A stretch of DNA of 64,000 nucleotides from Branchiostoma floridae (Eukaryota > Chordata > Leptocardii > Amphioxiformes > Branchiostomatidae), in assembly GCF_000003815.2 (NCBI RefSeq), contig NC_049983.1, forward strand, positions 12,100,283 through 12,164,282, written 5' to 3'. Shown here one piece after another: positions 6,001 through 54,740 of the stretch (the stretch's first letter is position 1; each line of letters starts with the position of its first letter). Below the pieces are notes generated by a model that was not told where the DNA came from, did not search any database, and was given only the letters and a program-made list of their open reading frames with translations. Made by a program: the position numbers and the translations under genes.

Positions 6001-8640
6001 TATGGATCATGATGCTCAGAGCTTAGCAGGTATTTGTGATCAAAAGACGCCATTTATCACTGCAGTGCCGCTGCGGGCCCAGATTTTGAGGGGAATGATC
6101 CGTGACATAGTCATTCCGGAGCTCATGGGAAGACCTGTAATTATAGAACAATCACTGTCTTTTTACACTTACCGTAGCAAGCCTAACAGCGGTAGCATAC
6201 CAATATCAAAGTGTTTCAACATGTACATGCATTTTTACCGTTTTTAGATAGAAAATGCCAAGGCAGCCCGCACCAAAGTTGAGAGAAACGATTAAGAGTG
6301 AGGGAGAACCATTGGCTAAAGGTCAATGACCATTTGTAACGAATCAGATAACCGTATCATGTGTGCTGTGAAAATATTTAGTCACCGATCAAAGATCATT
6401 CTGATTAGATTATAACGTTACTGCCTTAGTGGTTCATTTCCGTCAGAACTTTAGGCGTCTTCAAGCGCGTACACTGGCTTGTTCAAGTTTGTTTTTGTTC
6501 ACAGGCTGTTTCGTTCATGACACTGCAGTGATTTAAGAGCTGGAAACATTGTTGTTGAATACCGTCGTGGTCTGCCTTGGCTAGGTATGGTAATTTGTCC
6601 TTCCCCATGATGCACCTGTTCCACCCACCTGTTTATTTGGTGCAGTACTGATAGAATCCGCTAAGCACGCTGCTGCACCGCAGGTTACGGTCAAAATGGA
6701 ACCTGATTTTCTAGTAGAGGACATGCACGTATATTGGATGTTAGAGAGTTGGAAAAAACTTCCTGATTCTATAGGACTATTTCATACGAAAGCTTAGAAA
6801 AACACTTTTCTGCGCATCTCTGTCACCAACAACAGATGACTAAGCCGTTTCCCCCAAAGCCCTTACTACTTTTACCTTAGAAGACACATAAAAAATCTGT
6901 CTGATATAATGTCATCATAAAGAGGATGTCATAAAAATTCCGATTAGGCAAGCATAATGTTGAGTGTAGCCAGGGCTGTGTAGTACTTCTAGGTGGTGAG
7001 TAACGATTTTGTATTGACACTAGCAGCTGCATATTCGCATGCAGGGCAATTTTAGAATACATTACACTGCAAGAACCACAATCTAAACAAACTGTCTGGG
7101 GGTGCCGCAGGTGTACGGAGAGATTTGCCTTTTCTCTTAGCGGTACGAATATTTACGTGCGTTATCTGAAACTAGTGGCGCTGGAGGTAAAGAACGTGAC
7201 TTTGATGTCAGGCTCCTATTGACTGTACTCCTTAACCTGTCGCATGGCAGGTTGGTTGATTTTTCGTTGACTTCATGATTATGCCATACTTTCATGGATC
7301 AAATCAAAGACAGGTGTGAGCTTTTATTTGGTAGACTGTGTGGTTAAGATTCTCATATAATCTATATCACCTGTCGAAAACGTCGAGAATCTATTGTCTT
7401 ACCTGCTCACTGTCCATTGTAATTTATCGTTACCCGAGTACGAAAATAGAGTTCAGAAATGTTTGACATTTTTCTTAACCAAACGAATGGCAACTCCAAC
7501 TGTCACAGCTACAATAGCCATGGGTTAATGGGACAAAGTCACTGTCAAGTGATTCATGTTGATTTTTCGTATTAACCGTGCACGTGGTTGGTGCTCCTTT
7601 ATTCCACCTGACTAATAATAGTTACACCAGTCATTCTATTGTCAAGGGTTAGAAAGGAAGTGTGTTTCTTTTGTAAGGCTGACTCAGCTGCCTGTCACTC
7701 TGCTGACATTGATACAAGTTCAAGGTTGGAAAACACGTACGAAGTACATTCTTGGCGGGATAGAACTGTTTCTGCGCTACAAGAATAAATAACAGCCTCT
7801 AAAATTTCAATAAGAGAAAAGATGAAGTCAGGTATGATCGTTTTGAGACACTTTTCGCACAGGATATTTTCTGTATCGTGTATCCCCAAATGTCGGAAGT
7901 TATTATAGACTGGCTCACTATGGTAATGGTGTTGGTGTGTTCATCACTGCGAACTTCCGATCGTACGATCTGTATGTTTTCTGAGGAAATCGTTGGAGAC
8001 AGTTTACAGGCACACCTTGGTGTTTTCTATACCCTGTGGTGTTTGATTACCGATAGATGCACGAAGTGTTTGGCTCCTGTGTCCGGGCCTTGATAACCAT
8101 CACAAGGTTCTACAGTCCTCTATCCGGAGACACGCTAACCTTGCCAGGATGTGTATTTCACGCAGACGCTCCTCGTTTACCACCAACAAGTTTGTCGCTA
8201 AACAAGAAGTGAGTTGTAGTAAAAGCAGAGAAAGCAAACACGAACTGTTCTAAACAATCTTAAAGAGCAGCAAACATGTCCATCCGGTCGGGAAAGTGTA
8301 CTTGATGTTATCTGTTACAGGTTCTTTAAAGGGGAATGTGGCCTATCCGTGCAAATGACACATGTCACATTGTCAATGGAGTGTAGAATACACAAGAAAC
8401 TCAGAAAAACACAACCACAAAAGGTTGAGACAACAACGGCACGGTTATGAAAACTAGGGTCGCTAAAGCTGGGTATAAGCCTTCGAGGGGGTAGGAAATG
8501 ACAACACGTTGTGCCCGCTCTTTGAGTAGGTTGTAGGGAGCGCGGATAGCCGTGCGCGGAGCAGTAGGGATCAGTGGGAATGTATGGAGCGCGTCTGTGG
8601 GCGCCTGACTATTATGTCCTCGCGTCACAATAGGGCGGGT
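1..8640. other. Intergenic DNA without a recognisable gene
   Basis: No open reading frame here looks like a conserved protein, and no pair of splice sites joins short frames into one. The longest frames (about 115 codons, near 5522-5869 minus and 5903-6247 plus) have no domain signature and no family I know. I see no transposon end, tRNA or rRNA. The only structured pieces are an imperfect direct repeat at 4489-4591 and a short duplicated CAACAAAACAACA tract near 5405-5460. Distal regulatory elements of the downstream RhoGEF gene could lie here but cannot be recognised from sequence alone. Confidence 0.6.
4489..4591. repeat. Imperfect direct repeat of about 45 bp
   Basis: Two copies (about 4489-4535 and 4551-4591) share TCCCAGACTAC, a GTACnTACATGTA core and the end CAGGTGAACACGAC. 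The first copy carries a few extra bases. Spacing is about 62 bp. The repeated CAGGTG is an E-box-like hexamer, but no function can be inferred from that alone. Confidence 0.6.
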
Positions 8641-21200: not shown

Positions 21201-24200
21201 AACTCATAATTGATTGTACATCATGTTTTGTACCGGCATGATAAGAATAACGCGTGCTGCAGTAGGATGCAAAATATCATTTAAGTGACCCCAGCCATGC
21301 ATGTGTTTGTCTAAATGTCTCCTACTTGCACCTTTACAGCTCTTAAAGACAGACACAGGGGGTCTGCTGCTAATCTACTTGAAGGTGAGTAACTCATCGT
21401 GATTCTCTGTTGTCTCATTCATGCAGGAATCATTCATTTACTGACGTTAACGTATCCAATGTGTACAACAATTACAAACCTGGCGTTCTACTCAAACTCC
21501 ATGTGTATTGTTTTCCACAGATGAGAAGAAGACGAAATCGGCATGGGCCTTCCTGAAGACGAACTTTGTAAGTATAGAACCAAAGCCTGTGTTTTATGTA
21601 TTTCATCTTCCACACTGAGGACGGTAAAAATGACCAATCAGAAAATGACCTCTGCTGTAGCTGAAGCTTACGGAGTATCCCACTTATTTTCACAGACCAA
21701 GAGTAAGGAGAAGGATGAGCGCAAGAAGAGCACGGCCTTGGAGGTCGCCCTGACCACCATCAAACAACGGGACCTTGGAGAGCATCATCTTAATGCCTAC
21801 AAGGTACTAATAATCGATTAATGCAGTAAAAAAGTCATATCTACGCCTCACAGTGTATTTTATTTATGTTTTGATAACTCTGTAGGGGTGAGACAAAATA
21901 CGAAGAACGTCTGACGCCACGTTTATGGTTTGTCTTCGGATTCACACTGACCTCCACGAAGTTGAGCACAAAATCCAAGCTTTCTTCATTACTCCATCAG
22001 ACCACCCAGCAAACGTGTGTATTGCAAAAGCGTAGCAACTTGTTCTACACGATAAACACACACAGGGGAAGCCGCAGCTCGTGTTACCGGTGTTTGTAGA
22101 ACTTGGCACGGTACCAGACCGTACCTGAGCCGGATGGTGCCGGAATCCCTGTACCAACTACGGCACCTGGGAACGTTAGAAGTAGTTCCCACGTGCCTTC
22201 AAACAGCCGTTACTATTCTAGCTTGTGCAGTAGACCAATCGAACGGTCTCTATAAGTCAATGCAAGCGTATGTTGGGATACAGGAAAGATGCCAGGCATG
22301 TTTTTACTAGACAAGCCTCTTTCCAAATTGTGCGTGACCAACGGTACTCCATGGATTATTGTTATGTTAACCTTATTTTCAAACATGTTGTTATCAGGAC
22401 TCCCATTGGACAGACCTGATGGCCACCACGGAGCTGGGCTTACCTTCCCTGCCCCTGACGGAGATGGAGAAGAAACGGCGCGAGGCAGTCTGGGAACTCT
22501 TCACGTCAGAGTGTGTGTACCTGCTGGACCATCTCCTAATCCTCAAATATGTACGTCATTGTCACGTGATATTATGGTAGAAGATAGACCTAAGTAATCA
22601 ATATCTAAGATTCATTGATTAAAGTATGTATACTTTAGTAATGCCACATTATGCAAATGTAAGTAACATCAATTTGTATTGAAGAAGTGAACTTGACAGA
22701 AGCAAGACATTCCAGTGTGTTGAATATGATTTCTCCCTTTCTCCTCCTTCAGGTGTTCCTAGAACCTTTACTAGAACTACAGGAGCAGGGTCACGTGGCC
22801 TTTGTGGACACGCCCAAGCTTTTCGCAAACCTAGACGAGCTCTGCCAGGTGAGTGTGCAACATGTGACATAATGCAACAACATGTGACAATATCGGCCCG
22901 AATGTATAGTATAGTGTAGGCCCAAAGTGTGTTATGTTTCATAATGTTTACGCTCATATGTTTATGATCATTTGATACAACACATTGCAGAGTTTGTAAA
23001 TTGAAGTACTAAAATATTCACGACTTGTTTTGTCCAGGTGAGCTCCTGGTTCTGTAAGGAGTTGCTGAACAACCTGTTGAATAACGTGACTCCCATGGAG
23101 TTCGGCAGCACGCAGGCCGTGGTCAATGCCTTCAACACGGTACGTATTATTTCTAAAAAATAAGTCACGTTGGGTTGATTTTGTTTGGATATCATGAAAT
23201 AACTCTTTATGTCGAAATAGCTCAGTTGAGATGGTCTCCCGAGACGCCCGCTTCTGGTAGCAAGCTGTCGAAAACCGTAATTGTCTTACCCATCGTGTCT
23301 CTTGCAGACTCTGAGAGTTTTTATTAAACTATTTTGTTTTTGTAAGATAACTTCTCCACATCATAACCCATGCCAATCCCTTATTTCTTGCAGTTTGGTA
23401 CCCGGGTGTGTCCACCCTACCAGCGATATTGTCTCAACTACTCCAGTGCACTCTCCTACATGGTCGAACTGCGAAAGAACGAAGACTTCAAGGAATTCAT
23501 CCAGGTAAAAAAAAAACTGCAATCGTGGAAAAATATATATCATTGAGAACAAGCCCATTTCGTAGCTATCTACCAAATAGTAGTGTGAAAATTTCAGACG
23601 AAATCTATGTGAAACATACCAAACATTCCCGTGACTTGTATTTCCAGTGGTGTGAACAGGACCCACGGTGCAATCGGTTGAAGCTGTCGGACCTGCTGGT
23701 GGCTCCCATGCAGCACCTCACCAAGTTCCCGCTCCTGCTCAAGGACATCCGCAAACGTACCGAGGACGCAGACGACAAGACTTCCCTAACGGCAACTTTA
23801 GAATCTGTGGAGGAGTCTATAAGTAAGACACATTCTTAATCAAAATATAATGTTGAATGTGTCTGGTTTTCTTTTACTAAAGTTTCAAACATTTCATCTC
23901 CAATATAGCTGCAGCTTTAAACTTTTAAACCTAAAGTACAGAATGTCAAATAACTCTTGTTTTGATGTGTTTTTGAAGGAGAACTTGAGGGGAAAGTGAA
24001 GTGGCTGACGAACTTTGAGCGTCTACAGGAGCTACAAGAACTCATCGAGTTCCCCGCAATAGACCAGGAAACAAAGGCATATGTACCAGAGGTACGTTTT
24101 TCTGCATAACAGCCCAAACTAGAACTAGGGAAACTCTGTTGGATGATACATTAAAAAAACAAAGCTAAAGGATATATGGAAAACTGGATTTCTAGGTCTT

Positions 24201-30400: not shown

Positions 30401-33400
30401 AGCATCTTTGTCTTCTGGTTCAGAAGCTCCTGTGGTTCGCCACCCAAAAAACAAGGTACAACATTCCAACACAAATCCACAAAGCAAGATGTGAAAGGAG
30501 TGTATTTTTGCTATGTATGTCACCAGAAATGTAGTAGTATCTATTATTAAATGTTTCCCACAAATACAGCATGCAAGTTGTATGTTTCCCTATCATGCAA
30601 AGTGTAATCTAATTAAAGCTCACACAAGAAATAGCCCAGGAGATATGATAATAGACAAAGCAAATGCCCACTCCATACCAACTGGTCTTCAGTTTAAATA
30701 GCACTAGTGATACAGACATTGCTATATACAACTGGCCTGCAGGTATGTTTCTGACATTGAGAGAAGAGAGCTGCCACAGTTCGGTGCCTAGAAGTGGTCA
30801 ATGGCCTTGCACTGAGCAAACAAAAAAACCTTTGTACACATAACGAATAGAAGATTTGCAAATACACTGTTGCTTCCAGATCAGTATACATAAAACCATC
30901 TCTGACCTCCTTCCTCCTCTGCTCGTGCAGTTCCCTGTCGAACTGGTCCTGTAAGGTCTGCCTCTCCCTGGCTAACCGCTGCTCCTCCTCCGCCTCCTCC
31001 CGCGCTCGCCGCTCCCGCTCCTCCCGCTTCACCCGCTGGCGCTCCTCAACCTGCTCCTGGATCGCTCTCTGGAGGATTGGCAATCAATCTGTTTGTTTGT
31101 TTATTCATTTTGCACATAAAAACAATAAAAATAGTAAAGAAAAGTGAAGTAAAGAAAAGTGCTGGAGGAGGGGAGAAGCCTGCATGGCTTGTACAAAGCT
31201 GTTATTCATCAATCTCTAAAGCCTGCATCACAATTTAAGCAAGTGCCAGCCAAATTTTTAGATCAGCTGGAGCTTGCTAAATTGTCACAAATTGGACTGG
31301 GCTCAGTATGTCATTCCAGAAAGTTTAAGTTACTGTCTTTTCTGCCTTTTTTGTAGCCTCCTTCACCGGCCTCTCTGGGAATCTTGGCAATTTTTTTTTT
31401 CGGGGGGTAGGTTGATTCGCGATTTTTAACCGGGAATATTATGCCGGGAAAGGAACATATGTCGGGAAAGGAATATGCACCGGAAAGCTTGTACGGGCTA
31501 GGCGAAATCGGCTTCCCAGTAGGCCTGCTACTTGTCGCTATCTACAAAGCCCCATTAAAAAACACTTATCACCATTTGGTATGGATGTGCGAACTTCCCG
31601 TCATAAACGCATCCAGCACTGGCAGCCCGCCACACAACCCGTCACGCGATGACCCGTAACTTTGTAACGGTCGTCGGGTCACGCATTTCAAACCACGGCT
31701 CATTTGAAAACGAGTACTTACCGTAGAAAAACTCCGCTGAAACTTCCCATCAAGTACGAAAGAGCAAGGGCCGAACGGGCAGCCAGGGAAATCTTTTTAA
31801 GTAACTCTCGCCCCCTCCACCATTCAGATTGCCGGTCGGATCATCGATGGTGTATATAAAAGCAAGGATTTCTTAACCTCCTTGATAAAAGTATGTTTTT
31901 AAACCCACTGGTCCCAGTGACACATGCACATTAAGACAAAAAAAATGTTTTACACTGATCTGAAATGTAAGTTTTTCACGTCTATCAATTATTCAAACTC
32001 CGGAAGTGACAAAGGCAGGCAGCGTGTGCACGGTTTCCGGTAACGTTACGTAGGCTTGTGGCACGCTTCGGGGTGGCCGTACACTATTAACGTTGACGTG
32101 TGAAGTGCTTGTCGCGATGCTGTGAATTACTTCTCGCGACAGTGTGAATAACTTCTCGCGAATACATTAATTGGCCGTCTGAAAGGCATTCTTAATCTTT
32201 ATTGCGTTTGTAGATAGCGACAGGTAGCAGGCCTACTGGGAAGCCGATTTCGCCTAGCCCGTACAAGCTTTCCGGTGCATATTCTTTTCCAGACATATAT
32301 TCCTTTCCCGGCATAATATTCCTGGTTAAAAATCGCGAATCGACCGTCAGCCGTACTTTGGGTTAAGTTAAACTTATCCCAGCTAACTATCTGCTAAATC
32401 TGACTACAGGTGCTACATGTATATGATGAAGGAGTTATTCTATGCCTGACCTTATGTTCCAGGTCCTTCAGACGTCTTCTTTCCAGTTCCTCCAGCTGGG
32501 CAGGGTCCTTCAGCGCTGCGCCAGTCCGTAAAAAGTTTCTGTGTGAAAATATTATAAAGATACATAAAAGATACTCATGTTAACAGTAGAAACCTTATAC
32601 CAGTACACAGGGTTAGGACAGGAGATGTCTCCAAGTCTGCCAGGGCTCCTGGTGGGTAACATGACCAATGACAGCAAGGTTAGACAAGTAAGAACCAATA
32701 CCAGGAGGCAAGATGACTAATTTTAGGTTTTGACTATTTCTGATGAAAGGGTACGCTAGACTGAAAAGTGAAGGAAGATAGTTATAAGGCAGAGGTGAAG
32801 GAATGGTCTGGGACAGCCAACTGGATCAATGGCAAGGAAGAGGCGGTAAGCCTACATCTAATCAATAATAGACTATGGCAGAATTCTACAATAGGTATAG
32901 GAATTTCTAAAATACTGTCTGGCAAAATGCATCAATGAAATGATGAGGGACTGAATAAGGAAATATCACATCAGTGCTGGTAGAAGTGCATCTGTGCTAA
33001 CCATCTGTAGGTTAGGTGCTGTTTAAGTGATGAGGAAATGACAAAGATTTAGTCACACATAATGATTCTTCCGTGCACAGCTCATACAGGCATGTTATGT
33101 GCAGATTACTACAGTGCAAACCCTGACCAGTGGACCACATGTGTGAGGGATAGAATGTTTTAGTGGCAGTCACCATGGCAACAAATACTCACACAGAGTC
33201 ATCATCAGGGTGTGTGGGTTCAGCTCTGCAACACAGGTTAACACATGGGGAGTCATGCCAACGGAAACGTAAAGCAGCCTCAGGCAAGCATCAATTTTTC
33301 ACAACCACAAGAAAATTAGAACGTACATGTATTATATTGGTTATGCAGTAGAACAGGTTGCATTGCATTGATTATGAGGTTAACGTGTAATTTGACTTAA

Positions 33401-41600: not shown

Positions 41601-41800
41601 AATACCCCCTGTAGCATCAGCGAATAGACTCCGACAAATGTGTATCTATATGTTGTTCACAATCGCAGAATTCAGCCCGTTAATCCGATCTTCCAGTCCT
41701 GCCTACAATGTTATTCTGCCCAGTGGTATTTGAGGTATTATGGCCTCCGTTTAACGGCGGCGCGCACACAATAAGCGCCACGCTACTATTGGTCAATCCC
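41587..41800 (-). promoter_or_regulatory. Probable CCDC66 promoter, overlapping the foldback arm
   Basis: The 157 bp between the CCDC66 ATG and the foldback end at 41744 are AT-rich and unremarkable. The first 60 bp of the arm are GC-rich (GGCGGCGCGC) and contain ATTGG at 41788-41792, which is CCAAT on the CCDC66 strand about 205 bp upstream of the ATG. This is the only promoter-like composition near the gene start, so the promoter probably lies partly in the element. The same motifs sit at the far arm (CCAAT at 50589-50593). Confidence 0.4.
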
Positions 41801-42068
41801 ATCGGTGAGGATAGTTTCGTCGACGGCAGTACAGCAGTTCCGCCATAATTCAACATTTGAGCGCATAAAACACGGCCTTTTAGAGCATACTCATGCTATG
41901 TAAGCCCTTAAACAGGTAGGTCCTTTTCTATATGATTCTAAGAAACATAAGTAATCGGAATTGACCCGAGCTTATGGTTCAAAACAGTAACTTTGTTACG
42001 CATATTTATCCCGGAAGCAAGTCGCTTCCTTGCCCCTAGTTAGTCCCTCATTCATCGGTTAAATTTTA
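41744..42068 (+). repeat. Left terminal arm of the foldback element
   Basis: Unique-sequence part of the arm. Landmarks running inward are GGCGGCGCGCACACAATAAG, CTACTATTGGTCAATCCCAT, CGACGGCAGTACAGCAGTTC, ACACGGCCTTTTAGAGCAT and TCCCTCATTCATCGGTTAAA. All recur in reverse complement in the right arm. Compared with the right arm it lacks about 20 bp between two CAT triplets near 41848, consistent with a microhomology deletion. Confidence 0.85.
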
Positions 42069-43247
42069 GCTCTCTAGAGACCAGATAACACACCTTACAG
42101 GTAATATTTGCGTGGCTCTTAGCTCTTGGGACCAGGTAACACACCTTACAGGTAATATTTGCGTGGCTCTTAGCTCTTGGGACCAGGTAACACACCTTAC
42201 AGGTAATATTTGCGTGGCTCTTAGCTCTGGGGACCTGGTAACGCACCTTACAGTTTATATTTGTGTGGCTCTTAGCTCTGGGGACCAGGTAACACACCTT
42301 ACAGGTAATATTTGTGTGGCTCTTAGCTCTGTGGACCAGGTAACACACCGTACAGGTAATATTTGCATGGCTCTAAGCTCTGGGGACCAGGTAACACACC
42401 GTACAGGTAATATTTGTGTGGCTCTTAGCTCTGGGGACCAGGTAACACACCTTACAGGTAATATTTGTGTGGCTCTTAGCTCTTGGGACCAGGTAACACA
42501 CCGTACAGGTAATATTTGCGTGGCTCTTAGCTCTGAGGACCAGGTAACATACCTTACAGGTAATATTTGTGTGGCTCTTAGCTCTGGGGACCTGGTAACG
42601 CACCTTACAGGTAATATTTGTGTGGCTCTTAGCTCTGGGGACCAGGTAACACACCTTACAGGTAATATTTGTGTGGCTCTTAGCTCTGGGGACCAGGTAA
42701 CACACCGTACAGGTAATATTTGTGTGGCTCTTAGCTCTTGGGACCAGGTAACACACCGTACAGGTAATATTTGTGTGGCTCTTAGCTCTGGGAACCTGGT
42801 TACCCACCTTAGGCCACACCAATTTAATTTCTTGGTTCACGGATTCGCTCGCTCCTATGTTTTGGGAAATAAAATAAAAAATTACCACTCAGCAAATTTT
42901 CACCATTAATGAAACCATTCACCAGCTTTCTGGTGTAGCAAATTGGCCTTTATATTATAAGCTCCTTAAAGTGTGGATACAGGTGCTGTTACTGTACAAT
43001 AAGTGTTTTTGTACTTTTTTGGATTAGCCATTACCTTTACCCCAACCATTTTACAATTTTTTTTTTTTTAATTTTTATTTCGCCCTCTCGCTCCATATTT
43101 TTTATGAAAATCTCCGTGAACCACGAAATTAAATTGGTGTGGCCTTACAGGTAATATTTTTGTGTCTATTAACTCTAGGGACTAGATAAGGCACCTTACA
43201 GGTAATATCTTTGTGGCTTCTAGCTCTGGGTACCAGGGAACACAATT
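42069..43247 (+). repeat. 51-bp minisatellite, left array (split by a MITE)
   Basis: About 14.5 units run from 42069 to 42811, and two more degenerate units follow at 43145-43247 after the MITE. The unit contains ACCTTACAGGTAATATTTG, then TGTGGCTCTTAGCTCT and GGGGACCAGGTAACAC. Period 51 is exact (for example GTAATATT at 42101, 42152, 42203). As 51 is 17 codons, the array is open in a frame on both strands (42112-42909 plus, 42373-42888 minus). That is a consequence of the repeat, not evidence of a protein. Confidence 0.9.
42812..43144. mobile_element. 333-bp MITE with TTA target duplication (PIF/Harbinger-like)
   Basis: Terminal inverted repeats of about 31 bp begin GGCCACACCAATTTAATTTC and differ at one base near position 21. 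The flanks are TTA at 42809-42811 and TTA at 43145-43147. Removing the element and one TTA restores an intact CACCTTACAGGTAATATT of the 51-bp unit. A 3-bp TTA/TAA duplication is the mark of PIF/Harbinger elements. The interior is AT-rich and non-coding. Confidence 0.85.
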
Positions 43248-44724
43248 CTGCATTCACAGTACATTCAAATAATTGTTTTGTTGCTTGTTTTCACTGTACA
43301 TGTTTAGCTGGAGGCACGTTCTGTAGCCAGATGCTTCTTATTAAATCTAAGGAGAGTAAGCTATTTTACATTTCTCTAGCAGCACAGACCCACTGGTCAG
43401 ACCACTGGAACAAGATTGATGGCCAATACATGTTCTATATCTTGTCTTGCCTGTGTGATTAGAATTTTTGTACATTGTTTCAGATGGAGATTGTCACTAA
43501 GAAAATGAAGAGTCATCAGGGAAGGCTTGCCACAGACCCACACTGATGTAGACTTGAGTCAACCAGGCGAACTGAGTTGCATTTGCTTATGAGGTAACAA
43601 GGACACAGAAAACATATTCTTAACAAAAGATACACGAACTAAGATCTTGGAACAAAGTCAAGGATAGGTTCCACTTCTCGCTTCTTGCAGGTATGAATGT
43701 ATGGAAAGGATGGAGCTTATATTACATTGTTTGTCTAATTGCGTATTTAAAGTAACATAATTTTTCCTGTGCTATGTTGATATTAGAAGATATGGAACAT
43801 ATATTGTATGCAATTGAGGCTATTTATCTTTGTTGTATAATACCGTCTGCAACAATATGACATCCATCTTCATTCTTATTTAGATCACAATTTTTACAAC
43901 TTCTTGGCTGCACAGGAGTCTGTAATGTGCACCTTTTAGTTTTTAGACATTGATTTTGTGTGAAGTATCTGGAGATTTGTGATGGATTTTCTATGTCATG
44001 TTATATATTTATTATTTTGTGCACAATTCTCCTAGCCTAGGTCGTACTCTGTATGTTTGTAATTTGTTGCACATGACAATGACAATGTGAGACATTTGGC
44101 TACTGTTATGTGAAATGATAATATCCAAAGTGTACATGTAAATATGTTCAGGTTGACTTCTTTTCTGTTAGCAGTGGAAAAGGAAGGGTCCAACGTATCA
44201 TGTAATGAGTAGGTTCTTTGATGTTGAGAGGTGTTAATATTTTCCAACAGTGAACATGACAACATTGTTATGGTATTTGGTGACAATATTTAGTTTGAAT
44301 AGCTCAATTCTTACATGATGTTTTTGTAAAAAAAACACGAAAGTTTTTGCAAAGAACTTAGAAGATGATACGAAATGTCTTTTGTCTCCCAAAGTTTTTT
44401 ATATTATATACATGTACTTTTGTGCAAATTGTGTCACAGAGCGAAGGAGATAGTGAATTAAGTATGTTTACATTACCTACTGGTGCACAATGAAGTTCTT
44501 ATTAAAATGTGAACCTATACCGATTCATTAGACTATTGCTTCAAGTTTCTTTTGTGTTAAGTAATTTTATTTGATGCTTCTCGGATTTTTTCAGAAAAAT
44601 ATTGGGGTGGGCGGTCGAAAAAAAAAGGAAAATAAAATTTTGCAAAAAGTGTTGGGTGAACATATGAGGCTTTAATATATTACACAAAAAAGCAAGGTTA
44701 GTAATCAAGATTTCAGCGTTTCGT
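43248..44724. other. Interior of foldback element without recognisable genes
   Basis: AT-rich sequence with only short frames. No transposase, reverse transcriptase or integrase motif was found. A frame fragment near 43660-43740 faintly resembles the tail of a LINE ORF2 but is too short to call. Confidence 0.5.
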
Positions 44725-45854
44725 CTAAAAAATTATTCCGCACCCAATAAAGTTAGTTTGAAGAAAATCAGACATCGTTTCGCGAAAGCATTTTTTATGC
44801 GAAAAAATGCTCTTTTTGCCTCAGAAGGGCAAATTAAGATTTTTTGACCAAATTGTTGCATATTTGATGTAAAAAAATTATTCCGCACCTAATAAAGTTG
44901 GTTTGAACAAAATCGGACATTGTTTCGCGATATCAATTTTTTATGCGAAAAAATGCACTTTTTGCCTCAGAAGGGCAAATTGAGATTTTTTGACCAAAAA
45001 ATTGCATATTTGATGTGAAAAAATTATTCCGCGCCCAATAAAGTTGGTTTGAACAAAATTGGACATTGTTTCGCGATATCATCTTTTTATGCGAAAAAAT
45101 GATCTTTTTGCCTCAGAAGAGCAAATTGAGATTTTTTTACCAAAAAATTGCATATTTGATGTCAACAAATTATTCCGCACCCAATAAAGTTGGTTTGAAC
45201 AAAATCGGACATTGTTTCGCGATATCATCTTTTTATGCGAAAAAATGCTCTTTTTGCCTCAGAAGAGCAAATTGAGATTTTTTGACCAAAAAATTGCATA
45301 TTTGATGTGAAAAAATTATTCCGCGCCCAATAAAGTTGGTTTGAACAAAATCGGACATTGTTTCGCGATATCATTTTTTTATGCGAAAAAATGCTCTTTT
45401 TGCCTCAGAAGAGCAAATTGAGATTTTTTTAACCAAAAAGTTGCATATTGGATGTGAAAAAATTATTCCGCACCCAATAAAGTTGGTTTGAACAAAATCG
45501 GACATTGTTTCGCGATATCATTTTTTTATGCGAAAAAATGCTCTTTTTGCCTCAGAAGAGCAAATTGAGATTTTTTGACCAAAAAGTTGCATATTGGATG
45601 TGAAAAATTATTCCGCACCCAATAAAGTTGGTTTGAACAAAATCGGACATTGTTTCGCGATATCATTTTTTTATGCGAAAAAATGCTCTTTTTGCCAAAG
45701 ACGAGCAAATTGAGATTTTTTTACCAAAAAATTGCATAGTTGATGTCAAAAAATCATTCCACACCCACTAAAGTTGGTTGAACAAAATTGGATATCGTTT
45801 CGCGATATCTTTTTTTCTGCAAAAAAATGCTCTTTTTGCCTCAGAAGAGCAAAT
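44725..45854 (+). repeat. 146-bp satellite array, about 7.7 copies
   Basis: ATTCCGCnCC recurs at about 44736, 44881, 45027, 45173, 45319, 45466, 45613 and (as ATTCCACACC) 45757, giving spacings of 144-147 bp. Each unit reads through AATAAAGTTGGTTTGAACAA, GGACATTGTTTCGCGATATC, ATGCGAAAAAATGCTC and TTTGCCTCAGAAGAGCAAAT. Middle copies are nearly identical; the first and last are most diverged, as expected when unequal exchange homogenises the centre. The array stops exactly where Penelope-like sequence begins. Confidence 0.92.
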
Positions 45855-46240
45855 CTGAGCGATCACTCAAGACCAGGGTCCTTGAGCACAGACTCCCGAG
45901 TTCAACAACCTCAGAAGTTTCCCAACATATTCATATAGAATCGCCTGGTCATTCGGTCTCAAAGGACAAAGTTAAAATCTTGGACATAGAGCCTGACTAT
46001 TTTGCTAGAGGGATCAAAAAAGCCATCTACATCAGAGCTTTACAACCATCCCTATTTAAAACAGAGACATAGCCTTCCTGCAACCTATGATCTGAGCTTG
46101 CTGAGTCACGCGTTCTATTCAGTATTTGCTAAAGATGACGTCACGACAGCAGTGGATTGTTCATCTCTTGACAAAGACTGGTGCTGTTCAGTCGAAAATT
46201 TGGATGAGGCCAATTTTTGTGTTGGATATTACAGTTAGAA
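45855..46240 (+). pseudogene. Penelope-like element remnant, GIY-YIG endonuclease C-terminus
   Basis: The frame SLKTRVLEHRLPSSTTSEVS continues through HIHIESPGHSVSKDKVKILD and IEPDYFARGIKKAIYIRALQ to PSLFKTET and a stop at 46072. Out of frame it continues HSLPATYDLSLLSHA. The order R-EH, H-GH, V-I, E-x-R-KEAIYIR, P-LN and LP-YD-LL is that of GIY-YIG endonuclease domains at the C-terminus of Penelope-like retroelements. A frameshift near 46060 and the missing N-terminal part show it is dead. Confidence 0.65.
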
Positions 46241-46827
46241 TAGTTCAATAATGACTGAACTACCAACGCAGATGAACTTTCAAATTAAAAGAAAAATGCA
46301 ATTGTGCGTGATGCGCTTCAAATTGACCTTGATTTACCCATGCGAAACATGGATGTCACGATGCGGCCACGCGGCGAGCGCGCAACTTTAACATGTTTGT
46401 TTTTCACCTTGTTTTTTTTTCTTCATATTTATCACACATATTCATGTGGACTTATGTAGCCTCTCTTTGAAATCCCAATTCGACATGAAACATTCGTTTC
46501 CAAGTAACTCTCAGTTAAAGTTTTGGAGACTTGGCATCTATGATAACCTATTTCTCGCAACTTTACAGTAAATGTTGAAATTTCTACAAATATGAGAGGT
46601 ACCACATAAAAAGGAACCAGTGATATCACTGAAAGGCCAGTGATGTCACTAAAAGGGTATGTTGTGTGTGGCTCTTATTGCATCTCTTGTAAAGCTTTAT
46701 TTCGCTGCAGTCAAGCCACCATGAATAAATAGTGGTCTTTCGAAAAATACTTGTGCGGGACACTGAATCTTTTGAAGGAAAATTACTATTAAGTGTCGTT
46801 TATGTCTCTTCTACAAAACAAAAACGG

Positions 46828-48240
46828 TTTCTCTCAAGTTTGGCTGGCATATCGATGTATATTATCATTATTGTTACATAGATGAATTTAATTGGGGGTA
46901 ATATTTACTTATTGATATAAAGTATCTCCAAGCACATCGACAGCAAGCGCCCAGGAAGGAAGTGGAAACGAAAGACTTGACCAAATGGAACATCACGATT
47001 AAATTTGGCACTCGTTCTGCTGATCACGATCATCATCATTGAACAGGCGGTTTTAGAACTCGTCAAAATACAATGACACACCGCGGCAGGGCAAATCCTG
47101 TAGTTCCGCCAGGATATAGAATGTCGCCATTATATATAACTTGTATGTGTATTCATCAATGCGCACTATGAAGGCTATCTGACAAATGGAATATCAAGAT
47201 ACGTATTTTTGCCAATTGTGCAGATAACAATTCATGAATAGTGGGTTTTTAAACGTCGACAAATGACACCGATAAGCGCCACCTGCTGTACAGATATCGC
47301 ATGAGCTGAATAATGAAGAAAGATGAATCGCCTATATCTGCAATTAGATAGACGACAGAGCAAAACCGCTTAAAGTACATATAGATCAGTATATTAGCCT
47401 ACCGTGGTGAAAATTTCATTGACAGACACCGATTTTTCCTCGTTTCATGAAGTAAATCGCACTCCCGTCATGCGGGGTTCAAATCGGACTAAAATTGCCT
47501 AAGTGGAACATAGCGGTCGGAGTGCGCTCTCACGTTTTTGCCGACACGTCAGTGGTTTTCATACCTCTCTTAGGGAACGACAGATTTCTACCAAATTTGG
47601 TCGGCATATACATGAAAACCTACTTAGTCGCTGTATGAATTCTCATTTAATCATTTTGATTGGTTATTGAGTTTTGAGCTGTTGACGTTTGGAAAATAAA
47701 AGTCCAAAGTGGACTTTGTAGCACAACTCACGGGTATACCGAGTGTAACCACTCACAAAGGAAAGTGCTGATATCGCCGAAATACCCTTAGCAGAGTTAT
47801 ATAAAATTTTGTGCCTATTTCAGGTTGGAAATCCCTAACCCGACATCATTTTGTAATGTCGGACTTTCCGGACTTTGGACTTTTGTGAGATCACAAAAAC
47901 TGACGACTTCGACAGATAAATGGACTCGGTATATCTTTAAACAATTGCAAAATAACGAAAGAGTAACATTTCTAGCAACACAGATAGCTCAGTATATTAG
48001 CCAACCGTTGCCAAAGTATTAAGTGAAAAATACCACTCGCACTCGTTTGATAGGAAAACCTCGTTTGATAGGACTATTCGGCAAATGGGGGTTGGAACGC
48101 GAGTTCCGTGATCCGGACGTGAACGTTTAGAACTTCATCTGCCTCATTAATGTTATGAGAATCGGATTTCTTTCAAATTTGGCTGAAATATTTATAAATG
48201 CTTGCAAAGTCGCTGTGCCAATTGCTATGCTGAAATCATG
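46828..48240 (+). repeat. Degenerate repeats of about 0.6-0.75 kb
   Basis: The motif TTTCT--CAAATTTGG-(T/C)GGCATAT recurs at about 46828, 47587 and 48167. CAGTATATTAGCC-ACCGT recurs at about 47391 and 47991, in the same relative order. The copies are heavily diverged. At 47841-47863 and 47881-47898 are two small hairpins (CCGACAT/ATGTCGG; TTTTGTGA-GA-TCACAAAA). No coding capacity. Confidence 0.5.
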
Positions 48241-48722
48241 GATCATTATCGTGTTACTTGTTACTGGGTAACTTTGTAATCAGTGGTCTCAAACACAAAC
48301 CCACCTCCGCTGGTTTCCAAAACAGAGTGCCTACTAAGCCCTATTATTTTGGGTACATAATCCACACACATAAACGCGTACACTTTATTCATACACCTCC
48401 ACATTATGCTGGATACTACTACTACACTTGGGGTGGATATCGCTTCGTCGTACGTGCAACTGCGTGCTGTCTACGTACAAAACGTGGGCGATCCTTTGGG
48501 ATCTGTACGAGGAGTGATCAATAAGTCCTTGGCCTCACCCAGAAATAATGATGAAAGTTATTTGCAAGTTCTTGCCCGAGGGCTAATTGAAACATGAAAC
48601 ATACAGAAAATATAGTAAACATGCATAAAATAACTTAAAAACACTTTGGTATAGATAACAATGGTGACAAGTCTAGAAAAGTGACTATTCTATCAATGAT
48701 ATGGACTGCTGAGAGCTACAAT

Positions 48723-49349
48723 CTACGCATTTGGGGTTTGATTTCTTTTCAGTGGAAGACGAAGTACCCCACCCTTTTCTATAATGAGTGGGTTATGTGA
48801 CGTTAACAGCGTTATAGTTTTGTTTTCGTCAGTAAGCGTTTGGAAATTTTTGTGTTCTGCATGCCTCTTCAAATAACTCCTTTCTTTCCTGGTCATTAGA
48901 GAGGCAGTTAGAAATAAAATGTATTTCGTCTTCCACCGGTTTTGCAATACAATGGTTACATGCTCTTTCGCCCACAGGTAGCTTTTTGTACCGCCCTTTC
49001 TCAATTTCAAGGGGGTGAGCGCTAATTCTAAGTTTCCCCCTTGTCGATCTGACCACGAATTTATCTAGTAACGTTAAATAAGTTATCATTGAGTATCCCT
49101 TCTTTTATAGTTTCTTAAAAATCTTAACTTACCATTACCTGTAGACAGTCTATGAGAAAATGTCTGGATATATATATCTTTCAACCCTTTTCTTAGCGAT
49201 GTACATATATGCTTGTTGTCTAACCACGAATCCATAGAGTTCCATAAAAAAGAGCAACCAGTATTGTCTAGAATTTCCTTTACGTGTAACAAGCACAACT
49301 CATATTTCGAAGCATAGATGTCAAGTATTAAGTCTTCATGAATGTGCAC
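48723..49349 (-). pseudogene. Decayed non-LTR retrotransposon ORF2 C-terminus
   Basis: Three overlapping minus-strand frames (49349-49086, 49089-48829, 49010-48723) read as one protein broken by frameshifts. The middle frame has LRISAHPLEIEKGRYKKLPV, GERACNHCIAKPVEDEIHFI and SNCLSNDQER, a C-x2-C-(n)-H-x4-C knuckle found just after the reverse transcriptase of many LINEs. The next frame continues DENKTITLLTSHNPLIIEKG. The reverse transcriptase itself is absent. Confidence 0.65.
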
Positions 49350-49835
49350 CGAAATTCAAATTATTGTGATCATTACTTTTTGTAACGTTAGGTAAGGTAG
49401 ATGGGGAAAACGTGGACAATTATGCTGCGACCTGAGGTGTGCGGGTCAAGTTGCGCTGCTGGAAGTTTGACACCCACTTCTTTCATCATGATCAAACATT
49501 TTGACAATGTCTTTTGTTAATGACAACGACTTATGGCATAGGGAACTCGACCCACGCGTCTGATCACAATTCATCCTTGTTTTTCTCGCCACTTACCTTC
49601 TGATTTGCAAAAAAAAAACCGAATGCCTGGAAAGTAATGACTGCAATGGTTTGAAATTTGGAGGATATTGATAGAAGACTTGATACTACGAAGCTGTGAC
49701 TCAAAATTTGAGTTGTGCTTATTCTTTCTGGATGAGGCCAAGGACAGAGATCGTACGTACAACGCACTTACCACTTGCGCCACCAACGATGCACCCAACC
49801 GCTCACGGCCAGGCGTGGCATGGCCTCTCTGCTCT

Positions 49836-50289
49836 CAGAGCTAAGAGCCACGCAAATATTACCTGTAGGGTGTGTTACCTGGTCCCCAGAGCTACGCGCC
49901 ACGCAAATATTGCCTGTAGGGTGTGTTACCTGGTCCCCAGAGCTAAGCGCCACGCAAATATTGCCTGTAGGGTGTGTTACCTGGTCCCCAGAGCTAAGCG
50001 CCACGCAAATATTGCCTGTAGGGTGTGTTACCTGGTCCCCAGAGCTAAGCGCCACGCAAATATTACCTGTAGGGTGTGTTACCTGGTCCCCAGAGCTAAG
50101 CGCCACGCAAATATTACCTGTACGGTGTGTTACCTGGTCCCCAGAGCTAAGCGCCACGCAAATATAACCTGTACGGTGTGTTACCTGGTCCCCAGAGCTA
50201 AGAGCCACACAAATATTACCTGTAAGGTGTGTTACCTGGTCCCCAGAGCTAAGAGCCACGCAAATATTACCTGTATGGTGTGTTATACG
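49836..50289 (-). repeat. 51-bp minisatellite, right array
   Basis: About nine units of the same 51-bp sequence as the left array, in inverted orientation (GAGCTAAGCGCCACGCAAAT, then TTACCTGTAGGGTGTGTTAC). It is shorter and more homogeneous than the left array. It begins abruptly after GGCCTCTCTGCTCT and ends at the unique arm at 50290. Confidence 0.9.
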
Positions 50290-50637
50290 TAAAATTTAAC
50301 CGATGAATGAGGGACTAACTAGGGGCAAGGAAGCGACAGTCGCTTCCGGGATAAATATGCGTAACAAAGTTACTGTTTTGAAACATAAACTCGGGTCAAT
50401 TCCGATTACGTATGTTTCTTAGTATCATATAGAAAAGGACCTATCTGTTTAAGGGCTTACATAGCATGAATATGCTCTAAAAGGCCGTGTTTTATGCGCT
50501 CAAATGTTGAATTATGATATTGTAAGCGAACAGCATGGCGGAACTGCTGTACTGCCGTCGACGAAACTATCCTCACAGATGGGATTGACCAATAGTAGCG
50601 TGGCGCTTATTGTGTGCGCGCCGCCGTTAAACGGAGG
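50290..50637 (-). repeat. Right terminal arm of the foldback element
   Basis: Reverse complement of the left arm. It carries about 20 bp not present on the left (between ATCATAATTC-side and GGCGGAACTG-side sequence near 50515-50540). It ends CCGCCGTTAAACGGAGG at 50621-50637. Just outside are AAAATGGCGTCG and CATGCGCAG, reminiscent of YY1 and NRF1 sites. Confidence 0.85.
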
Positions 50638-52730
50638 CACCTATAGCTCGGTATTTGGTTGCCCGAAAAATGGCGTCGTAACGACAGGTTACGGACATGC
50701 GCAGTTCTGTTTAGAGCGTCACTTAGCGAACTTCAGGTGAATTGCAGGGAGGGTAATTTCTGTGTTTGGATTGTAATATTCAACCAAGGAGATTTTGACA
50801 AAACCTATAGGACGTTTTGATAAAACCTCATTGATTCAATTTCATTGAGACTATATCAGTGTATTACAATGCAAATGATCCACAATTAAGTATCTTGTTA
50901 GCATAGCTCATATCAATGCATCGTCTCTTCTTTCCCAATACAGAAGTTGCAAGTTCACATATGTTGCAAATATCCTTCTTCAGAAAGCAACGGTATTTCC
51001 TCATTAATTATGCAAATGATGGAAAAACAATAATTTATGTGTTAGATGATATTGGTCTTTATCTGACATTAACCTACGTGTACCACTAGTATGAACATGC
51101 CATCATTTACCATTGCTGCCATTGTCGGCTATTAAATGACATCTATTTTCGAGGGCCGCTTCATATCAATATACCAGCGGTGCTGCATGCGCCATCGTTC
51201 CCATGACAACGGCTCTTACTTCCCGTTTGGCTTGCTTTCATACCAAGAATAGCTGCAAGAGAAAAGAGCCTCGTGACATGTGCACGACAGAGAGGAAACC
51301 TTTGCCTGCTGTGCTTCCTTCTTTAATTGCGGTCTTTTCATTTTCGCCTCAGGCAGACGATCGAGACTCGTAGTTTATGGAATGACGACGGTCATTTCAA
51401 TATTGTAGCAAAACGTTACAATGCGTCTGCATTTTAATATTGTAACAAAAACTCCGGACAGAAATCTCGAGGAATAACAGTAAGACCTTTAAGTGGTTTA
51501 TGGAATGACGACAGCCATTTCAATATTGTAGCAAAACGTTACAATGCGTCTGCATTTTGATATTGTAACAAAAACTCCGGACAGAAATCTCGAGGAATAA
51601 CAGTAAGACCTTTAAGTGGTTTATGGAATGACGACAGCCATTTCAATATTGTAGCAAAACGTTACAATGCGTCTGCATTTTAATATTGTAACAAAAACTC
51701 CGGACAGAAATCTCGAGGAATAACAGTAAGACCTTTTCACATATGCAAGTCTCCTGAAGCCCCAGTAATTGAGGCTTTTTCCTGTACACCTGTTGCACAC
51801 GGTAAAACGTGACTTTTGCCTCCCTCCAATCAGTGATTCCAGACGTTTCCGTGAGTGAAGACATGCATGCAAGTCACGACACACTGAAGCACTGATGGCG
51901 ACAATAAAGCAATTGGCTTGCAATGCGAGCATTCCTGGTTGGTGCTAGCTGGAACTGATTGTCTAAGATGTTTACATACTATGAAATGAAGACATGCTCA
52001 CTTACAGATGTGGTCACTCGCAGAAATCATATACGATTGATATTCGGATAGCTTTAAAGTTTAAATTTGCCAGGTAGGCCTTTGAAGATAAACAATAACA
52101 CGGCTTCAAAAGCATGTCGTGGTATGTTCCTGTGTAACATGTTTGTCACGCGTCCGAACGGACGTGCATATGTTTGGAAGTTATGTGAAAGTTATTACAT
52201 ACAGTATTCATGAACGGGTTGCCACGCGTCACTCGGTCGTTGTATAGAATCTATTTATATCACAAAAAGTATGTTAGAATTGATGAGTCTACCTCAGTAT
52301 AACATGGCTCGTGTAACAGTTGGTAAAAGGGCTTGTAATAGTATGATTGCAAAAACGCCTCAGCATATTTCGGTCATGTAGTGTTTTTCCCCAAGGACAC
52401 AGCCGCTATGCAGCCTTTGCAAGTGCCGCGATATGTTGCATGTGTCCTTAGGTTGGGGTTTACAGGTGCATTAATATTGATGGCCTTCTTCAAGCGGTAA
52501 AAGCTGGCATGAATGATTTCGCAAGGAATGTATAATTTGGTGAACCCAGAAGGCTCAGAAATCCCATTTTCCCCCGAGGCCGGTGATAATAAGATTCTCA
52601 CGACTTGAACAATGCCGCCTCGTACCGCCGGTCCCCATGGAAACCGTGTTTGCTTTCCGGACGAGAGGAGAGCTACCTGACGTCACAGCTGACGTGCTCA
52701 TGCGAGTGGGTGTCCCGTTCCCTCACAAGT
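50638..52730 (+). other. Spacer upstream of the TRIM-NHL gene
   Basis: No coding frame is recognised. It contains the 123-bp triplicate at 51373-51740 and ordinary AT-rich sequence. The region just before the TRIM start (52560-52730) is GC-rich and open in the TRIM frame from a TTG at 52605. It has no upstream ATG in that frame, so it reads as 5' UTR or promoter. Confidence 0.5.
51373..51740 (+). repeat. 123-bp tandem repeat, three copies
   Basis: Copies begin at GTTTATGGAATGACGAC near 51373, 51497 and 51619. Each runs through CATTTCAATATTGTAGCAAA, ACGTTACAATGCGTCTGCAT, ATATTGTAACAAAAACTCCG and GAGGAATAACAGTAAGACCT. The copies differ at only a few bases, so the triplication is recent. Each unit holds ATTGTAGC and GTTACAAT, a short imperfect inverted pair. 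The last copy breaks off after AAGACCTTT. Confidence 0.92.
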
Positions 52731-54740
52731 ATGGCAGCTGGACTCGTTAGCGAGATTAATGAGGAGTTTCTAGTCTGTCAGATCTGCTATAACGACTTCG
52801 ACCGCCCGAAGATTCTTCCGTGTCTTCACACCTTCTGTCAGCCATGCCTGGAGAAGCTTTTTGCCGCCCAGGCGGACAGGAACCTGTCGTGCCCCACCTG
52901 CCGGCAGGAACTGTACTTGCCCCCGCACGGTGTGCAGGGGCTAAAGGACAACTTCCTAGTGTCCAAACTCCGTGACGTCGTTACCAAACCAGGAAGACCG
53001 CCGGCAAACGCACAAGACGTCACCATATGCCGCGTCTGTTCGACTGGTACGGGCGCTACCTTCTACTGTGTGGACTGTCGGGAATACCTGTGCCAGGTGT
53101 GTACGGACGCCCACCGCCGACTCAAGCTCACACGGGCACATAACATTGTAGCCACAGGCAACTCTAGTCCCGTTATGGCTGACCGTGGGGACAACAACAC
53201 TTCAATGTGCACAAGGCACGGCGAAATCAACAAATTTCACTGCGACACCTGCCATCTGGTAATCTGTCTGCACTGTGTTGTTACCGCCCACAAGGAACAC
53301 AGGTATGTGGAAATAGAGGAGGTGGCGGAGAGGGAGAAAAAGAACGTAAGGCGACTCCTGCCTGTAGCCCGGGGGATCGCGTTTCTACAACAAGCTAAGC
53401 TCAATGAAATGCATTCATTGAAGCAGAAATGGGACGCCCGTGTTGACCAGACTGTAAGCACTGTGGAGGCTCGGGCGAAACTAATGATAGACGCCATACA
53501 AGAGTTAAAGCAAGCCAAAATCAGTCATATCCAAGCGCTATACGCGGCGAGTAAGAAGGAACTGGTTTCGGCAGTGCAGGCGGCGGAAGAGAATCTCAGT
53601 TCCGCTAAGAGTTTCGTCCAGTTCGCGGAGAGCATGGACGATAATGGCACTCCTATGGAGGTGTTTACCCAAGCACGTGACCTCACAGGTAGACTACAGA
53701 GGTACATAGACAATGATAATAAGGGGAAAGTCGACGTTTCTAGTTCTTTGATGGACATTCAGTTTTCCTCAACTGTCACAGAGGGGGCAGAAGAACTGGA
53801 CCGTCTGTTCGGCAGTTTGTCTATCAGAGCGCCAATGCCGGAACCTTGGCCGACTCTACCGACAATTCCGTCTGAAACGCCTTATGAAACGCCCAAGACT
53901 GTCGCCAAGCCTAGCCGGACGCTGAACCCCACGGGAACCGCACGGCTATCCACAGCCTTGGGTAAGAGGGGGAGCGGGGACGGAGAGTTTGACTGGGCGG
54001 CGTCCGTGTTTGTCAACAACGAAGGTTTCATCATCGCGACGGACGTCCGGAACAAACGCCTGCAGGTGATGGACGAGGAGAACCTGTACGGAACCATTAA
54101 CCTTGGCTTTGAACCGTGGGACGTGGCCTGCAAGGACAACGGCGACCTCCTGGTCACCGGAGATGGACACTCCATTCACGTGCTGGACAACCAAGGTAAG
54201 GAGAAGGAAACCATCAATGTGGAGGGGTTCAGGGAGAAGGACAAGCCCTCCCGAGGTATCGCGGTGGACAGGCTGGGCCGGATCATCGTGTCTATCGGGT
54301 GGCAGGTGTTCGTGCTGCTGCCGGACGGCACGCCGGTCCACACCCTCGCCTCCTCCTCACACCAGCTCTTCGGTAACCAGCTCCGCCTCACCACCAACAG
54401 CGACAGTCAAGTCATCGTCAGCGACTGGAGAAACGATATTATCAAGGTGTTCGGACAAAACGGAGAGTTCGTAAAAGAGTTTGGGCTGTACGGGTCCGGG
54501 GATGGGTACTTCGACTATCCAACCTCCGTCCACACGGACGACCACAACAACATCATCGTGGCGGATAGCAAGAACCACCGAGTGTCGCAGTTCAGTAAAG
54601 ACGGGACGTTTGTGCGCCACCTGTTGTCCCGGGATAACGGGCTGTGGCACCCGCAAGGTGTGGCCATCACTCCCGACGGGAAACTTGTCGTCTCGGACAG
54701 AAGCGAAAACAGTTGTGTCAAGGTCTACACTATTGACTAA
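52731..54740 (+). CDS. TRIM-NHL protein, RING-type E3 ubiquitin ligase (TRIM2/3/56-like)
   Basis: A single exon of 669 codons. Of the possible starts, the ATG at 52731 (MAAGLVSEINEEF) has A at -3 and G at +4 and lies just ahead of the RING, as in TRIM proteins. The open frame further upstream has no ATG. RING at 16-57 (C16, C19, C31, H33, C36, C39, C54, C57). B-box 1 at about 100-140 (C100, C103, C113, C116, C121, C124, H128, H137). B-box 2 at about 160-190 (C160, H163, C171, C174, C179, C182, H187, H190). Coiled coil at about 205-330. NHL beta-propeller at about 407-669, ending VKVYTID. No filamin domain is seen between coil and NHL, unlike TRIM2/3/71. All zinc ligands are present, so it should be an active ligase that recognises targets or RNA through the NHL domain. 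Intronless TRIM-NHL genes have expanded greatly in amphioxus, so one-to-one orthology is unlikely. Confidence 0.92.
   Translation: MAAGLVSEINEEFLVCQICYNDFDRPKILPCLHTFCQPCLEKLFAAQADRNLSCPTCRQELYLPPHGVQGLKDNFLVSKLRDVVTKPGRPPANAQDVTICRVCSTGTGATFYCVDCREYLCQVCTDAHRRLKLTRAHNIVATGNSSPVMADRGDNNTSMCTRHGEINKFHCDTCHLVICLHCVVTAHKEHRYVEIEEVAEREKKNVRRLLPVARGIAFLQQAKLNEMHSLKQKWDARVDQTVSTVEARAKLMIDAIQELKQAKISHIQALYAASKKELVSAVQAAEENLSSAKSFVQFAESMDDNGTPMEVFTQARDLTGRLQRYIDNDNKGKVDVSSSLMDIQFSSTVTEGAEELDRLFGSLSIRAPMPEPWPTLPTIPSETPYETPKTVAKPSRTLNPTGTARLSTALGKRGSGDGEFDWAASVFVNNEGFIIATDVRNKRLQVMDEENLYGTINLGFEPWDVACKDNGDLLVTGDGHSIHVLDNQGKEKETINVEGFREKDKPSRGIAVDRLGRIIVSIGWQVFVLLPDGTPVHTLASSSHQLFGNQLRLTTNSDSQVIVSDWRNDIIKVFGQNGEFVKEFGLYGSGDGYFDYPTSVHTDDHNNIIVADSKNHRVSQFSKDGTFVRHLLSRDNGLWHPQGVAITPDGKLVVSDRSENSCVKVYTID

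Follow-up and report, generated by a model that had tools for sequence, protein, structure and literature searches.

A stretch of 64,000 nucleotides from the genome of the amphioxus Branchiostoma floridae (contig NC_049983.1, positions 12,100,283 to 12,164,282; here referred to as the window) very probably holds a complete copy of a family of non-autonomous, foldback-type DNA transposons. This copy, E1, occupies window positions 41732-50649 (8,918 bp) and is flanked by a perfect 7-bp target duplication, GGTATTT. Each end begins on the outside with the duplication and an 11-bp tip, which is not the same at the left as at the right; unique arm sequence of about 330 bp, inverted at the opposite end, comes next, followed by inverted tandem copies of a 51-bp unit. 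The two arrays enclose a 6.6-kb core with a 146-bp satellite. Long inverted arms holding tandem repeats are the structural mark of the foldback class, and they are present here. Drosophila FB and sea urchin TU are foldback elements that likewise have long inverted arms with tandem arrays. The parts of E1 are as follows.

41725-41731: left copy of the target duplication GGTATTT, 7 bp
41732-42071, forward strand: left arm, with tip GAGGTATTATG and then unique inverted sequence
42072-42811, forward strand: left array of the 51-bp unit, 14.5 copies, 93% matches
42812-43144: nested 333-bp insert resembling a miniature inverted-repeat transposable element (MITE), with 33-bp inverted ends and a TTA duplication
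43143-43244, forward strand: continuation of the left array, with roughly 2 diverged 51-bp units
43245-49835: core, without coding signal and largely common to the sister copies
44727-45859, forward strand: 146-bp satellite array, 7.8 copies
45782-46069, forward strand: frame resembling, by eye, the end of a Penelope-like element, with no library match
48829-49101, reverse strand: frame labelled a long interspersed nuclear element (LINE) fragment by a first-pass annotation, with no library match
49836-50285, reverse strand: right array of the 51-bp unit, inverted, 8.8 copies, 96% matches
50286-50649, reverse strand: right arm, inverted, with tip GAGCTATAGGT read inward
50650-50656: right copy of the target duplication GGTATTT, 7 bp

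The unique arms are near-perfect inverted copies of each other: positions 41743-42145 align with the reverse complement of 50226-50638, with one gap of 21 bp, two short ones, and a few changes. The left arm of E1 has lost about 21 bp, a deletion absent from the other aligned arms. The first-pass annotation, which was made from the letters of the window, had already described near-identical inverted arms of about 330 bp and inverted arrays of one 51-bp unit in about 16 and 9 copies, and both descriptions hold; its left count arises because the left array resumes after the nested insert. Its limits, 41744 and 50637, fall 12 bases short of the true end on each side. The nested insert, which we take to be Harbinger-like from its TTA duplication, occupies an identical site in E1 and four sister copies (E2-E5, below). 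Because the array reads CACCTTA-insert-TTACAGG, the neighboring array units show the target as it was prior to insertion.

Dispersed copies and their target duplications

We searched the genome from which the window derives (513,431,437 bases, 431 contigs) with an arm probe, window 41744-42073, and scored all 15 candidates. The 15 matches comprise six inverted pairs, which define the copies of subfamily A, and three single arms (S1 to S3). The pairs are listed with contig, length, number of undetermined bases (N), and the identical 7-mers found directly outside the GAG with which the tips begin (six of six pairs).

E1, C5 (window): 8,918 bp; N, 0; GGTATTT
E2, C4: 8,608 bp; N, 0; TTGTGAG
E3, C19: 10,654 bp; N, 100; GACATTT
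E4, C5: 11,287 bp; N, 1,512; CACTACT
E5, C8: 8,195 bp; N, 464; GTTTTGA
E6, C1: 15,179 bp; N, 3,882; ATAAGAC

Assembly gaps in E3 to E6 could conceal sequence. The tips of the A pairs are conserved and slightly asymmetric; a degenerate pattern derived from these same tips occurs at 13 sites, namely both tips of each A pair and one tip of S1, and its reversed control occurs at none. S1 is a solo arm of 379 bp with ACCAACC at both sides, and it is apparently the product of an internal deletion in which ACCTC alone survives of the opposite end. On C3, near 7.775 Mb, a partial copy borders a gap of 2,425 bases; its 51-bp arrays are at 7.779 Mb.

A second probe, taken from the core (window 46100-48100), returned 1,645 candidates, 40 of which were scored, so that locus counts from it are lower bounds. 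At least seven loci with 80-85% identity to this probe (L030-L032 and L034-L037) are colinear with parts of the core and constitute subfamily B. On further reading, two of its copies, B1 and B2, carry the 146-bp satellite and 51-bp arrays. B1 was traced to both ends and measures 14,065 bp, with one 100-base gap in the stretch read and the duplication AGTGGAA; its arms, which start GAGGTAACTCC, are 178 bp long and differ at one position. An arm probe for subfamily B gave 13 hits (13 candidates, all of them scored): 12 fall into six inverted pairs with spans of 14.1-17.2 kb, and the last is partial. Four of the six pairs have a perfect 7-bp duplication (besides that of B1: CGCGTGA, CACTGAC, and CAGTGTG). 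The pair on C13 fails a scripted 7-bp test, yet it has an 8-bp duplication, AAATTTTG, on both sides.

Across the 12 pairs and S1, the bracketing duplication is 7 bp in 11 of 13 cases, 8 bp in one, and lacking in one. The two flanks of a copy agree in 7 of 7 comparisons and flanks crossed between copies in 0 of 42 (the six A copies and B1). Dispersed copies with target duplications are what movement as a unit leaves behind. The first-pass annotation had proposed a mobile foldback family and suggested an arm search of the genome for further inverted pairs. That search was positive, with arms occurring well beyond the window copy: six pairs of the same type, each flanked by a perfect 7-bp duplication, and another six of a related type. 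Inspection of the arm termini, also suggested there, yielded the target duplication and no autonomous copy.

Movement of whole elements and competing explanations

Among E1 to E5, left arms are 98.9-99.7% alike and right arms 94.6-99.7% alike, whereas left and right within a single copy agree at 92.3-97.2%; in this comparison, the right arms of E4 and E5 and both arms of E6 were cut inward at a fixed length, as the end motif was not found. The arms of these five copies group by side and not by copy, and therefore whole elements moved. In two core blocks outside the arrays (reference E1, gaps ignored), E1 to E5 diverge at 0.27-0.76% of 2,513-3,298 sites, and E6 diverges from them at 9.9-10.5% of 1,609-2,337 sites; whole alignments counting gaps give approximately 96-98% for large blocks. 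The published heterozygosity of sequenced amphioxus species is 3.2-4.2% (PMC12500494). The core differences among E1 to E5 lie below this allelic level, and movement was therefore very recent. The family is young and recently mobile, as the first-pass annotation had thought possible, and the near-identity of E1 to E5 supports it.

It is improbable that the family was mobile but is now dead and that its copies are alike through gene conversion. Long similar arms favor conversion, as argued for Galileo of Drosophila (PMC3573991), and the transposase was not found. However, the arms within a copy are less alike than same-side arms across E1 to E5, and 27 of the 29 two-state core sites are private to one copy, as expected after a burst.

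A segmental inverted duplication, or a palindrome at a fragile site around ordinary DNA, would also place long inverted arms around a core of mixed repeats without the arms being transposon ends. This alternative, raised in the first-pass annotation, is very unlikely given the sister copies, which contradict it: arms and core recur at six loci that are unlinked or far apart, and a 7-bp direct repeat of its own flanks each. We give equally little credence to a composite of two single-armed elements inserted in opposite directions around local DNA; the one-armed S1 has a 7-bp duplication of its own, but in each of the six A pairs one duplication encloses the two arms together, and the DNA between is related core. 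Scarcely plausible, too, is a palindrome created from a single arm by misassembly; an assembly artefact was one of the refuting cases named in the annotation. The assembly is gapped and E3 to E6 hold runs of N, but E1 and E2 hold none, the two arms of a copy show fixed side-specific changes common to other copies, and the flanks differ.

We thus favor a mobile, non-autonomous foldback family, and several observations weigh against it. The searches run found neither a transposase nor an autonomous copy, and the P-type domain PF21788 had no match in this genome or in any of 14 control genomes; the first-pass annotation, too, had seen no transposase. The subfamily B pair at the end of contig C299 is without a matching duplication. 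The arms of E6, the old copy, group together in the arm tree and not by side.

A kept core and arrays inside unlike ends

Much of the E1 core can be aligned with E2 to E5, and each copy has its peculiarities. An assembly gap in E3 takes the place of E1 positions 6907-8105, E5 has internal deletions in common with the C3 copy, and E6 is without several core blocks, including the Penelope-like stretch. The 146-bp satellite is present in E2 to E6 as in B1 and B2. The first-pass annotation had called the core a mosaic; the satellite and mixed repeats are there, but the core is sequence common to the family, and the Penelope and LINE labels lack library confirmation. Neither the frame at 45782-46069 (forward) nor that at 48829-49101 (reverse) had a hit in Pfam, the latter had none in NCBIfam, and the best matches in the PDB had E values of 0.34 and 0.045, respectively. 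By eye, the first frame is similar to the end of a Penelope GIY-YIG region; the libraries did not confirm this.

We rejected the idea that the core is a decayed gene. The longest stop-free frame of E1 outside the arrays encodes 113 amino acids, and core blocks aligned to E6, B1, and C1 show no clear codon-phase bias, mismatches hitting the codon positions about evenly. No RNA family in the window reaches its gathering score, and a 23-base stretch of the arm has no exact match in viral contigs.

Subfamilies A and B have mostly 82-87% core identity by block and have the tip GAGGTA in common; beyond these first six bases their outer arms are otherwise unlike. An alignment of B1 arms with A arms was not convincing, with 29 of 500 shuffles scoring as well. 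The single arm S3 (C2:420278-420622) seems to be a chimera, B-type in its outer half and A-type in its inner half, because the partial B hit adjoins it in the same orientation. Four B copies (L030, L031, L032, and L035) carry, at one common position, an insert of about 1.1 kb that contains a reverse transcriptase frame (RVT_1 in Pfam, for L030) and marks one branch of the subfamily. The long frames in these four loci were discarded as genes of the element, being part of the inserted reverse transcriptase fragment (Pfam, L030 only).

More distant relatives of the core were also recovered. At least 10 loci (L041-L050; for example, C4 at 19.84 Mb and C8 at 21.94 Mb), here called subfamily C, have approximately 72-74% identity to parts of window 46687-48271. 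Compared with one another, they mostly agree at 88-99% over kilobases. Two of these loci were read for 10 kb each, and neither stretch contained a 51-bp array or long inverted arm. L039/L053 (C15 at 687 kb) is an older relative with the satellite, the Penelope-like stretch, and the core at approximately 76-85%, and 51-bp arrays lie about 12 kb from it (C15:698959-699467).

A 204-bp probe of the 51-bp unit gave 236 matches, with 40 candidates scored. All matches listed belong to A and B loci, the C3 copy, S2, or the C15 arrays near the core relative. Arms of E1 to E6 and B1 contain 4 to 41 units, some counts being lowered by gaps. Mean unit identity between A copies and B1 is 79.6-85.4% (group means), a value raised by the exclusion of units with fewer than 36 of 51 matches to one consensus. 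A THAP-type motif was dismissed as support for binding; it occurs once per 51-bp unit but also in 15.6% of shuffled units.

Arrays and core are recognizable in both subfamilies, so they would appear, on sequence grounds, to outlast the outer arms. A tentative reading, which we hold to be rather doubtful, is that the outer ends may have been changed on a kept non-coding chassis of inverted 51-bp arrays, 146-bp satellite, and core. It draws on the common arrays and core, the unlike outer arms, and the chimeric S3. If true, what persists is the arrays and not the outer arms, and successive transposases may have served a single giant passenger lineage.

Possible mechanism and relation to known elements

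A transposase encoded by another element would recognize the GAG tips, probably along with several arm sites, and would join the element to staggered target cuts 7, or rarely 8, bp apart. Passenger insertions such as the MITE would be carried along, and array lengths would change by slippage or unequal exchange. By analogy with Galileo, the inverted 51-bp arrays may be repeated candidate binding sites that offset length: the THAP domain of Galileo binds both close to the arm end and within the tandem repeats, and a large number of binding sites was proposed to compensate for the cost of great length (PMC3688188). The amphioxus family permits a test of whether repeated arrays make up this cost.

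Related elements have been associated with rearrangement, with Galileo tied to inversions in flies (PMC3573991) and DAIBAM found at three inversion breakpoints (PMC4079207), and for crossover coldspots in amphioxus, large heterozygous inversions have been put forward as one of the main causes (PMC12500494). With elements of 8-17 kb and recent activity, this foldback family is a candidate source of such inversions, and its known copies are few enough to be tested one by one.

Around the insertion sites, NRF1- or YY1-like promoter motifs lie within 100 bp of three of eight sites (window 50657-50760 and the flanks of E4 and E6), and an insertion preference for promoters is possible; the motifs were picked after seeing the flanks and occur in 4.9% of 1,098 overlapping 200-bp stretches of the window. 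Elsewhere in the window, a 123-bp tandem repeat (51373-51736, three copies at 98%) begins about 700 bp past the right end of the element, and downstream lies a TRIM-NHL-type gene with a 715-amino-acid open frame containing RING, B-box, and NHL repeats (52593-54737, Pfam). The window also contains a RhoGEF domain exon (23351-23833, Pfam) and a 139-bp inverted repeat, a candidate inverted-repeat element, with copies 95.7% alike and about 660 bp apart (31410-31548 and 32207-32345).

Among the papers listed by our literature search, none described such an element for amphioxus and none paired amphioxus with foldback elements; most subscription journals and Repbase lay outside it. Galileo, of the P superfamily in Drosophila, likewise has long inverted arms with tandem repeats and copies without a transposase gene, and its target duplications are 7 bp, rarely 8 bp (PMC4168063). 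A 7- or 8-bp duplication, as expected of Galileo and the P superfamily, is what we observe, and it is not diagnostic alone; the 8- to 10-bp, mostly 9-bp, duplication of Mutator elements is not the pattern here, where 11 of 13 cases are 7 bp and one is 8 bp. The 7(8)-bp duplication resembles that of Galileo without settling the superfamily. In contrast to Galileo, no target consensus is apparent here (by inspection, GTANTAC fits no listed duplication on either strand), and no P-type transposase is tied to the family, whose tips begin GAG.

Tetris and DAIBAM of the Drosophila virilis group also have three-part arms (flanking domain, tandem repeats, and inner part) around a variable core without conserved frames, and for them, too, no autonomous copy is known (PMC4079207); they differ in having 8- to 10-bp duplications and a 220-bp unit and were assigned by their authors to the Mutator superfamily. 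Tm1, a Mutator/foldback element of root-knot nematodes, also has composite inverted ends in which the number of repeats varies, and outside its inverted repeat lie asymmetric terminal motifs of 7 bp, much like the two differing tips of E1. Its duplications, however, are mostly 9 bp, its unit is approximately 14 bp, and a transposase-bearing group is known (PMC3169594). Among these elements, the amphioxus family is known in kind and new as a family, and it is unusual in its size and in the changed outer arms around kept arrays and core.

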